DNA from: Nitrospirota bacterium
Lineage (GTDB): Bacteria; Nitrospirota; Nitrospiria; SBBL01; JAADHI01
Assembly (NCBI GenBank): GCA_029261135.1
Contig: JAJDBX010000050.1
Location: 1 to 54,249, forward strand
Reading direction: 5' to 3'
DNA: 54,249 bases
Within the stretch, counting starts at the first letter, position 1, and each line of letters starts with the position of its first letter. A program made the position numbers and the translations under genes. Positions 48,477 through 51,325 of the stretch are shown here, one piece after another. Under the pieces are notes generated by a model that worked only from the letters and a program-made list of their open reading frames with translations, did no database searches and had not been told where the DNA came from.

Positions 48477-49592
48477 ATGCGCCTTCGAATTTTAGAAAAA
48501 AAACAACTGACGCACCTCCTTACCCGTGAACGAGAACAGAAGGAGTTGAGTGAAGATTCTCCAGCATTGGATCATATTTTGAGGGAGATCCTCACGAAAG
48601 CAAACCAGTTTGTCCCCTCGGAGGCAGGGTCAATCCTCCTTGACGATCCTTTTCGTAAAAAAGAAAAGATGCAAGACCAAGAACTTGTTTATGTGGCGTC
48701 ATTCGGGCTGGGTTCTTCAAATCTACTCGGGATCCAGCTTAAAACTAATGACGGTATTGTGGGGGCAACCTATCTCTCTGGTCGGCCTTACTTGGGTAAA
48801 AAGGTTTCTGCCGTAAAAGGGTTTAAACCCAAACGGGATGAACTCAGCCGTTTTAAAACAAAGTCGATGATTTGTGCCCCCATTATTATTGAAAGTTCAA
48901 TCTGTGGTGTGATCGAGTTGGCAAACCGTAAGGGGAAAGGCCATTTTTTTGAGGAGGAACTGAAACTTTTGGAAATTTTTGCAGGCTACACATCTACATT
49001 GATTCAAAATGTGCTTTATGCGAGAACGCACATCGAAATGTCAAAAATTGATGGTTTGACAGGTCTTTACAATGATCGTTATTTTTATGCAAAGTTGGAA
49101 AAGGAGATTCGAAATGCAAAGCGCCACCGTGATCATGATCTTATTCTCCTTTTTTTAGACTTGGATCATTTTAAGGAGATCAATGACGATTATGGGCATT
49201 TGACGGGAAGCCGGGTATTGCAGGATGTCGGGTCACTTCTTCAAAAAATTATTCCGTCGGAGGGTACAACGATTTCTAGATACGGTGGCGATGAGTTTAC
49301 CGTCATCTTTACAAAAACAAATTTAAGTGGGGCGGAGCAAGTGGCTGCTTCGGTTCGTGATGCTATTGAAAAATTTACTTTTAGGTCGGTGCCATCTCAT
49401 CCGAAGCGAAGTCCTGATTTATTAACAGACCGCCTGACCTGTAGTATTGGTCTTGTTTCCCTTGAACAACATATCGGGTATAAGGGCTCAAGAGGAGAAG
49501 CGCGTCATTTGTTAATTTTAAAGGCAGATGTCGCGATGTATGAAGCAAAGGTCAGTGGGAAAAACAAGGTATGTGTGGCCAAACCGGAATGA
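48477..49592 (+). CDS. GAF-GGDEF diguanylate cyclase
   Basis: The 371-residue soluble protein has a GAF sensor domain (about 25-185, with GIVGATYLSGRPYLG and SMICAPIIIESSICGVIELAN) joined to a GGDEF domain starting near KIDGLTGLYNDRYF at 195. The active-site motif GGDEF at 270-274 (RYGGDEFTVIF) and the metal Asp in LFLDLDHFKEIND are intact, so it should make cyclic di-GMP. No RxxD inhibitory site is visible before GGDEF. The GAF ligand is unknown. There is no Shine-Dalgarno before the ATG. Confidence 0.93.
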   Translation: MRLRILEKKQLTHLLTREREQKELSEDSPALDHILREILTKANQFVPSEAGSILLDDPFRKKEKMQDQELVYVASFGLGSSNLLGIQLKTNDGIVGATYLSGRPYLGKKVSAVKGFKPKRDELSRFKTKSMICAPIIIESSICGVIELANRKGKGHFFEEELKLLEIFAGYTSTLIQNVLYARTHIEMSKIDGLTGLYNDRYFYAKLEKEIRNAKRHRDHDLILLFLDLDHFKEINDDYGHLTGSRVLQDVGSLLQKIIPSEGTTISRYGGDEFTVIFTKTNLSGAEQVAASVRDAIEKFTFRSVPSHPKRSPDLLTDRLTCSIGLVSLEQHIGYKGSRGEARHLLILKADVAMYEAKVSGKNKVCVAKPE

Positions 49593-49672
49593 ACAGGTGC
49601 CCACAGCCCCGAAATTCTCAGAGTGAACCGTGTTTTATTAAGATCCTCTATGCGAAATGAACAAAAGGAGGA

Positions 49673-49700
49673 TAGGGAAGCTTTTAAAAGCCCTTTCCTA
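49673..49700. terminator. Possible bidirectional terminator after the GGDEF gene
   Basis: A nearly symmetric sequence, TAGG...GCTTTTAAAAGC...CCTA, with a 12-bp perfect core palindrome at 49680-49691 lies between the converging GGDEF and histone-like genes. A second pairing (ATCCTC near 49652-49657 with GAGGAT 49669-49674) overlaps it. U-tracts are poor in both directions. Confidence 0.3.
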
Positions 49701-49708
49701 ATAAAGAA

Positions 49709-49891
49709 CTAAGAAAGGTCGCGTGCCTTCACTGTTTTCCGTTTTTCAGCCCGTGCTTTATCAATGGCTTCGTTGCAAATTCCTTCTACGGATTTGCTTA
49801 ATGCATCTAAGAATTCTTTTGAGGTATTAAATTGCGCTTTGGTTTGAACGTATTTTTTGATTTTAGAACTCACGATCAACATCTCAGACAT
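49709..49891 (-). CDS. Bacterial histone-fold protein (Bd0055/HBb-like)
   Basis: The start is the ATG ending at 49891, with GGAGGAG just upstream; the in-frame ATG four codons earlier lies within that site. The 60-residue protein is a single histone fold: alpha-1 LIVSSKIKKYVQTKA (5-19), a long central helix NTSKEFLDALSKSVEGICNEAIDKARAEK (22-50), then RKTVKARDL (51-59), the loop and short helix that in archaeal histones reads RKTVKAEDI. Bdellovibrio Bd0055 has the same size and plan and binds DNA. A role as chromosomal architectural protein or specialised regulator is inferred. It is monocistronic. Confidence 0.82.
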   Translation of the reverse strand: MSEMLIVSSKIKKYVQTKAQFNTSKEFLDALSKSVEGICNEAIDKARAEKRKTVKARDLS

Positions 49892-50002
49892 GCACTCCTC
49901 CATTCTATCCCATAAAGAGTCTTGTGATACTGGAAAACATCTTATGCCAGGTTGCCGATTAAAGGCAAGAAGAAATATCTGAAAGAAAACGGAGAAAAAT
50001 TA

Positions 50003-50467
50003 ATGGTCTGGACGCCCCCAGTTCTAAAAAGCAAACGTTTAGATCTCGCATCGCCTTCGGATAAACCGCCAGTAAAATTTCATAATCAGAAACTGGAAGG
50101 TCCCGAGCTAATCGGGCTGCCAAGTAATTGGACCATTTTTTTGAAGGACTCTAATGAGCCAATTGGTAGTATTGGTTTTATTCGTTGGGAGCGAGAGATT
50201 GGATTGGGGGAAATTGGCTTTATTTTAAAACATGCTGAAAGAAGGCGTGGATACATGGCTGAGGCTTGTGCTGTGGTTTTTGATTTTGGATTTAGCATGA
50301 TGGCGCTTGAGGCGATTGAGGGAAGGGTCATGCCAAAAAATAAAGCATCATCCGCCCTATTAGAAAAAGTAGGGATGAAAAAAGGAAAAAGGGTTCAAGC
50401 ACGCTTGTCCCAAAAAGGCGAACTGGTAGACCTTGACATCTATAGCATGAGGAGACCTGGACGCTGA
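50003..50467 (+). CDS. GNAT-family N-acetyltransferase (RimJ/RimL-like)
   Basis: The start is the ATG at 50003 with GGAG 8 nt upstream; an upstream TTG in the same frame has no site. The 154-residue protein has the GNAT core: strand pair IFLKDSNEPIGSIGFI, GLGEIGFIL, the acetyl-CoA loop ERRRGYMAEAC with helix, and the C-terminal VMPKNKASSALLEKVGMKK that RimJ/RimL-type enzymes use next to acetyl-CoA. The N-terminal substrate region is short. The substrate cannot be predicted. A terminator follows at once. Confidence 0.85.
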   Translation: MVWTPPVLKSKRLDLASPSDKPPVKFHNQKLEGPELIGLPSNWTIFLKDSNEPIGSIGFIRWEREIGLGEIGFILKHAERRRGYMAEACAVVFDFGFSMMALEAIEGRVMPKNKASSALLEKVGMKKGKRVQARLSQKGELVDLDIYSMRRPGR

Positions 50468-50499
50468 CCTTGGCGGTTTAAATTGAAGCCAAGGTTTTT
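50468..50499 (+). terminator. Rho-independent terminator of the GNAT gene
   Basis: CCTTGGC (50468-50474) pairs with GCCAAGG (50488-50494) over a 13-nt loop, followed by TTTTTA. It begins 1 nt after the acetyltransferase stop codon and ends at the thiD stop on the other strand. Confidence 0.8.
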
Positions 50500-51325
50500 A
50501 TTCTGTATCCAGAAAATAGAAATGGTTCGTCGGCCCATGACCTTGTCCGATATGAAGACTATGTCTTATGGCTTCAGTGACATATGATTTTGCTGCTTGA
50601 ACCGATTGTTGAAGTGACTTGCCTTTTGCAAGGTGTGTCGCGATTGCGGAGGCGTAGGTGCAACCCGTTCCATGTGTATTTTTTGTGTTTATAAATTCAC
50701 TATTGAAATGTGTTATTTTTTTCCCATCAAAGAGGACATCACAGCCGGGGGCTTCGGGTAAATGACCTCCTTTTATTAATACGGCCTGACAACCCAAGTT
50801 CAAAATTAGACGGGCTGCTTCTTCTGCTTCTGAAACAGAGTTTATTTTTTTGTGGATCAATTGTTCCGCCTCTGGAATATTGGGGGTGAGGACTGTGGCT
50901 AAAGGGATGAGCTTAGATTTTAATGTTTCTATTGCGTCAGGGCGGAGCAGGGGCGAGCCGTCTTTTGACATCATTACAGGATCGAGTACAAAATGGGTAA
51001 CAGGAAGTTCATTAAAAAATGCAGATAGATGGTTTACAATTTCTAAGGAGGAGAGCATGCCCGTTTTGATTGTAGAGATATTAAAATCCTGAAATAGGCT
51101 CTTGAGTTGTTCGTCGATGATCCAAAGGGGCAGATCGAAAGTTTTAAACATCTTGATACTGTTTTGAGCCGTCACTGCGGTTAAAACGGATAGTGCGAAG
51201 GCCCCATTTGCTTCTATTGTTTTAATGTCTCCTTGAATCCCTGCGCCACCACTGGGGTCGGATCCTGCAATGGTTAAGACAAGAGGTTTATTCTTTCGTT
51301 TTTTTTGAGGGGTTAATTGTTTCAT
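50498..51325 (-). CDS. thiD: Hydroxymethylpyrimidine (phosphate) kinase
   Basis: ThiD phosphorylates HMP and HMP-phosphate for thiamine synthesis. The 275-residue ribokinase-family protein has the start LVLTIAGSDPSGGAGIQGDIKT, the middle HFVLDPVMMSKDG, and the anion-hole/catalytic segment NTHGTGCTYASAIAT near residue 214 with the catalytic Cys in GTGC. It stands alone, with no other thi genes in the window. No TPP riboswitch is seen upstream. Confidence 0.96.
   Translation of the reverse strand: MKQLTPQKKRKNKPLVLTIAGSDPSGGAGIQGDIKTIEANGAFALSVLTAVTAQNSIKMFKTFDLPLWIIDEQLKSLFQDFNISTIKTGMLSSLEIVNHLSAFFNELPVTHFVLDPVMMSKDGSPLLRPDAIETLKSKLIPLATVLTPNIPEAEQLIHKKINSVSEAEEAARLILNLGCQAVLIKGGHLPEAPGCDVLFDGKKITHFNSEFINTKNTHGTGCTYASAIATHLAKGKSLQQSVQAAKSYVTEAIRHSLHIGQGHGPTNHFYFLDTE

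Follow-up and report, generated by a model that had tools for sequence, protein, structure and literature searches.

A single-histone-fold protein of the Bdellovibrio HBb type encoded in Nitrospirota of the class Nitrospiria

The histone locus

The window, by which we mean the whole 54,249-nucleotide stretch analyzed (contig JAJDBX010000050.1 of the Nitrospirota assembly GCA_029261135.1), contains the sole histone gene match of its genome (G000; 3.2 Mb in 77 contigs). The following features were assigned at the locus:

48477..49592, plus strand: GAF-GGDEF diguanylate cyclase gene, convergent neighbor (context)
49670..49698, minus strand: imperfect hairpin just 3' of the histone stop codon, with no T-run
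49709..49891, minus strand: gene for a single-histone-fold protein (P0001, 60 aa, bacterial dimer or HBb type)
49897..49901, minus strand: Shine-Dalgarno GGAGG, seen in the sequence 5 nt upstream of the start codon at 49891
49939..49968, minus strand: promoter-like TTGCCT-18 bp-TAAGAT, ending 47 nt before the ATG and common to loci L029, L030, L031 and L033
50003..50467, plus strand: GNAT acetyltransferase gene (PF13302), divergent neighbor (context)

The histone gene runs on the minus strand from an ATG at 49891 to a TAG stop and encodes 60 residues, as read from the ORF list and the sequence; an earlier sequence-only reading had given the same coordinates and left the strand unstated. The good ribosome-binding site that it described was borne out by the GGAGG motif, which was also present in all three congeneric genomes compared. 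An alternative in-frame ATG at 49903 would make a 64-aa product; the start at 49891 was preferred because the proteins of relatives align at that residue. This is a real gene and is under strong purifying selection, with dN/dS of about 0.05 to 0.07 between the window and the three congeners (dN 0.07 to 0.11; dS 1.4 to 1.6, near saturation over 60 codons).

The gene likely has its own transcript, given a recurring upstream element, downstream hairpins in relatives, and neighbors on the other strand. The element, a TTGCCT-18 bp-TANNNT pattern 47 to 52 nt from the ATG, was found in the window, the three congeners, and one sister genus (L029 to L031 and L033 in all); the pattern was drawn up after viewing the alignment and is unique in the window, with 0.45 occurrences expected by chance. 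The window copy matches the sigma-70 consensus at 8 of 12 positions and lies within the 111 bp between the histone gene and the divergent GNAT gene. The pattern was not seen in L032, L034, L035, L037, or L038, where there were other candidates or none. A generic consensus scan of the window missed the conserved element, returning one promoter-like site inside the gene and no terminator. At -9.1 kcal/mol, the hairpin stretch of the window was no better than shuffled sequences (z -0.51), and L029, L030, L031, and L034 have long hairpins (-20.9 to -33.5 kcal/mol) at the matching site behind the stop. The own transcript claimed by the sequence-only reading is thus backed by the upstream element and by the strand of both neighbors, whereas a classic terminator was not found. 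Codon adaptation to ribosomal genes was 0.68 for the histone gene, a value that does not separate the window ORFs (0.65, sd 0.04) from the ribosomal set (0.71, sd 0.04; 19 ORFs, one apparently spurious); 11 of 38 window ORFs scored as high or higher. Codon usage thus neither strengthens nor weakens the abundance suggested by the sequence-only reading.

Fold and class of the protein

Bacterial histones have been recognized only recently, the best studied being those of the predator Bdellovibrio and the spirochaete Leptospira. The window protein scored 22.7 bits against the Pfam model PF00808 (NF-Y/archaeal histone; cut-off 21.4), the match being restricted to residues 29 to 59. In a phmmer search of the PDB, the top match was Bdellovibrio bacteriovorus HBb/Bd0055 (8fvx/8fw7, 8cmp/9ezz/9f0e; E 5.5e-15), aligned over residues 1 to 59 with 29 of 60 residues identical and no gaps, followed by HTkC of Thermococcus kodakarensis (9f2c; E 1.1e-7) and HLp of Leptospira perolatii (9qt0; E 9.3e-6). 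Structure prediction, which the sequence-only reading had proposed as a check, was run on the monomer with AlphaFold2 from a 23-sequence alignment and gave a histone fold with helices at residues 2 to 19, 25 to 48 (alpha-2), and 56 to 59 (mean pLDDT 84.5, pTM 0.59; the five single-chain models spanned pLDDT 69.7 to 84.5). All five Foldseek matches with E up to 0.001 were HBb chains (best TM 0.83), and both HLp (TM 0.75) and HTkC (TM 0.73) fell below HBb. Both the single histone fold and the likeness to Bd0055 claimed from the letters therefore held, the former through the PF00808 score and the helix-helix-short helix model, the latter with HBb first by sequence and by fold.

The archaeal-histone plan also claimed there held only at the level of the fold. 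Archaeal histones (NF043032) have in common with the window protein the histone fold and the RKT...RD residues in loop 2 and alpha-3; in contrast, the NCBIfam archaeal model gave 26 bits, below its cut-off of 50, and the predicted alpha-3 of the window protein is a single turn. HTkC (PDB 9F2C) is likewise a short histone, but it is archaeal and scores lower than HBb. The single-turn alpha-3 of the monomer model fits the truncated alpha-3 of bacterial dimer histones, a class within the alpha-3 family defined by sequence clustering (Schwab et al. 2024, main text of PMC11390915). As described there, alpha-3 in this class is cut to 3 to 4 residues, alpha-2 is 4 to 5 residues shorter than that of nucleosomal histones, an RKT...D motif spans loop 2 and alpha-3, and alpha-1 carries conserved lysines numbered 11, 13, and 17, taken here as HBb K10, K12, and K16. 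Further traits of the class are the lack of the R and N of face-to-face tetramers, dimers in solution, and DNA bending. Our assignment to the class is by closeness to HBb in the PDB match, whereas the published class comes from CLANS clustering. Judged by its sequence, the window protein is a genuine bacterial dimer (alpha-3) histone of the HBb kind, a kind of protein already known.

DNA-contact and interface residues

Simulation of HBb ranked its main DNA contacts as N22, R57, S9, T53, T8, S24, K10, K12, K52, and K16 (main text of PMC11317129). Eight of these ten are identical in the window protein, the exceptions being T8 (S) and K16 (Q). The RKT...D motif (R51, K52, T53, and D58) is present with the spacing of HBb; the RD clamp retains R51 and D58, and E stands in place of HBb D49. 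Of the alpha-1 lysines, K10 and K12 are kept; position 16 is variable among 19 Nitrospirota sequences (R in 10, Q in 5, K in 2, S in 1, A in 1). The dimer-core positions reported for HBb in the same main text are all hydrophobic here (V11I, L31L, I35V, L38I, I59L), and V7, S9, K10, S24, L31, R51, K52, T53, R57, and D58 are invariant in all 23 aligned sequences of the window protein and its relatives. The 19 Nitrospirota rows used for residue counts and for the tree omit L042, which has an in-frame stop, and L028, a second copy in genome G006 outside the set of named loci.

HLp (PDB 9QT0-9QT2) shares the alpha-3 histone fold and forms a face-to-face tetramer, with R49 and N53 as interface residues (main text of PMC12701072). 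A face-to-face histone whose tetramers wrap or bridge DNA as in Leptospira would account for the lower yet clear HLp match, and at the R49 site the window protein has K45 and six of the 19 Nitrospirota sequences have R. However, HBb is far closer than HLp, and in the phmmer alignment R49 and N53 fall on K45 and E49, so that the tetramer residues described in that text are absent; N occurs at position 49 in 1 of 19 Nitrospirota sequences. We regard such a tetramer as very unlikely. With most HBb contacts kept and the HLp arginine and asparagine absent, the protein was therefore grouped with the bacterial dimers of PMC11390915 (as its main text describes them) and not with the face-to-face forms.

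HBb (PDB 8CMP, 8FVX, 8FW7, 9EZZ, 9F0E) and the window protein are alike in size class, in fold, and in contacts and RD clamp that are mostly kept. They differ in that HBb has four extra C-terminal residues where the window protein stops at residue 60, in loop 2 position 55 (K in the window protein, M in HBb), in position 16 (Q versus K), and in net charge (+5 versus +2). Residue 55, within the loop 2 stretch RKTVK, is K in all 19 counted Nitrospirota sequences and M in the uncounted L028; among the non-Nitrospirota rows, counted by eye, it is M in 58 of 61 and K in L071, L078, and L100. A 52-sequence Bdellovibrio-type set was picked by a length of 64 and the string RKTVMARDI, and its counts at positions 51 to 59 are predetermined because that string was the selection criterion.

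Neighboring genes

Of the six closest relatives that were compared, five (L029, L030, L031, L033, and L034) keep the gene order ThiD-GNAT-histone, and this conservation would favor a locally acting histone-fold protein, such as a transcription factor or one that works with the adjacent GNAT or GGDEF protein, over a general nucleoid protein. Against this, L032 and the Manganitrophus locus L037 lack this order, the GNAT gene is present in three genomes with no histone match (G009, G010, and G016, with ThiD nearby in G009 and G016) and apart from the histone gene in G011 and G013, and the DNA-contact residues are conserved. We consider a local job improbable and retain a general nucleoid role as the preferred reading.

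Because the divergent GNAT-histone pair is conserved in the family, the idea arose that the GNAT protein modifies the histone. A dedicated histone-modifying enzyme was set aside as an explanation, since G009 and G016 have the GNAT gene near ThiD and no histone match, and in G011 and G013 the GNAT and histone genes are separated. The ThiD and GNAT genes are side by side in the window (50003-51325) and are near neighbors in G009 and G016; their pairing is independent of an adjoining histone, being kept in these two genomes with no histone match.

Distribution and ancestry

The three congeneric genomes carry the histone at 82 to 87% identity. Among the best 80 of 193 database matches, the nearest named records were MAGs labeled "Candidatus Manganitrophaceae," Nitrospirota, and Nitrospiria (87, 85, and 82% identity); other named carriers were "Candidatus Manganitrophus" and "Candidatus Troglogloeales," with Bdellovibrionota next at about 53% and less. 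Of 58 near genomes, 26 had a match, G000 included, distributed over families f1 (6 of 7 besides G000), f2 (2 of 2), f5 (5 of 6), f7 (1 of 1), f10 (7 of 7), f11 (3 of 3), and f12 (1 of 1). In the same 58 genomes no match was found in families f3 (n = 1), f4 (1), f6 (22), f8 (1), f9 (3), or f13 (2), family f6 being, at a guess, Nitrospiraceae. Weak PF00808 matches were seen in the f6 genome G053 (19.4 bits, below the cut-off) and in G010 (17.2 bits, in a 488-aa frame). A profile search across the phylum matched 18 of 395 genomes, each in the class of the window or nearer. Because many genomes of the class are without a match (0 of 22 in f6), the histone appears dispensable in parts of it. Histone loss was considered for the congener G002 and set aside: the GNAT, GGDEF, and penicillin-binding protein orthologues are missing there too (the GGDEF search being without a positive control), which makes an assembly gap likelier.

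In a tree of 80 proteins and 64 columns, the 19 Nitrospirota rows fell on one side of a branch with indecisive support (89/89). A single acquisition or origin in the class with subsequent descent and loss would fit this pattern, to which the tree gives no date. Bacterial histones have a patchy distribution, and for such cases contamination has been suggested in print (main text of PMC10627809), so Bdellovibrio DNA in the assembly, or a chance open reading frame, might be invoked for the window gene. Yet the gene order on both flanks is common to congeneric genomes, the protein is closest to other Nitrospirota copies in the tree, and purifying selection speaks against a chance frame; the probability we leave to either is negligible.

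Several copies stand apart. Genome G015 ("Candidatus Manganitrophaceae" GW715_bin.13) has an intact copy (L008/L035) and a second one (L027/L042), probably a decaying paralogue, whose frame is broken by a TAG following residue 32. Besides L005, genome G006 encodes the divergent L028, 47% identical and in a longer open frame. Two MAG records titled Streptomyces griseus (L070) and Klebsiella pneumoniae (L078) contain HBb-like histones, and these titles look like wrong bin names rather than true hosts.

HU/IHF genes were found in all 58 near genomes, with five matches in G000. Replacement of HU by the histone is thereby rejected, and the histone therefore supplements HU/IHF.

Proposed role and significance

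Considered as a whole, we are confident, short of certainty, that the window encodes an HBb/Bd0055-type bacterial dimer histone, most likely a DNA-bending nucleoid protein beside HU/IHF that would be expressed from its own small transcription unit. Histone-fold homology, the monomer fold model, the contact residues, purifying selection, the phyletic spread, and the coexistence with HU/IHF genes are what the analysis itself shows. The dimer, DNA bending, abundance, and the nucleoid role would carry over from HBb, for which solved complexes, single-molecule data, and simulations describe bending by dimers (simulated angle about 84 degrees across 36 bp) with no sequence preference (main text of PMC11317129); in a competing HBb model, dimers encase straight DNA (main text of PMC10627809). 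By analogy with the former, the window protein probably acts as a pair and bends DNA non-specifically. Two copies would pair via antiparallel alpha-2 helices, and at minor grooves the L1-L2 loops of the dimer (N22, S24, K52, T53, and R57) would hold the DNA backbone, with the start of alpha-1 (S8, S9, K10, and K12) also in contact with the backbone; it would form neither nucleosomes nor tetramers. Points against this reading are the replacement of the K16 contact by Q, the restriction of the PF00808 match to residues 29 to 59, the many genomes of the class with no match, and codon usage with no mark of high expression.

Proteins of this type have been described before; their inherited occurrence across a Nitrospirota class is less familiar. 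Literature searches found no paper on Nitrospirota histones. The word "Nitrospir" is absent from the main texts of two large surveys (PMC10627809 and PMC11390915), whose supplements may list Nitrospirota entries, and from those of PMC11317129 and PMC12701072. Because the main texts of the two surveys omit Nitrospirota, the occurrence of an HBb-type histone in several families of the phylum extends the range that those texts give. More tentatively, and with the odds rather against it, the histone inherited in Nitrospiria, including "Candidatus Manganitrophus," might be a major chromatin protein beside HU/IHF, whose K55, shortened C-terminus, and higher charge could confer a DNA-binding mode unlike that of HBb. 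With some families carrying the histone, others without it, and HU/IHF in all genomes examined, this class of Nitrospirota offers a natural comparison.
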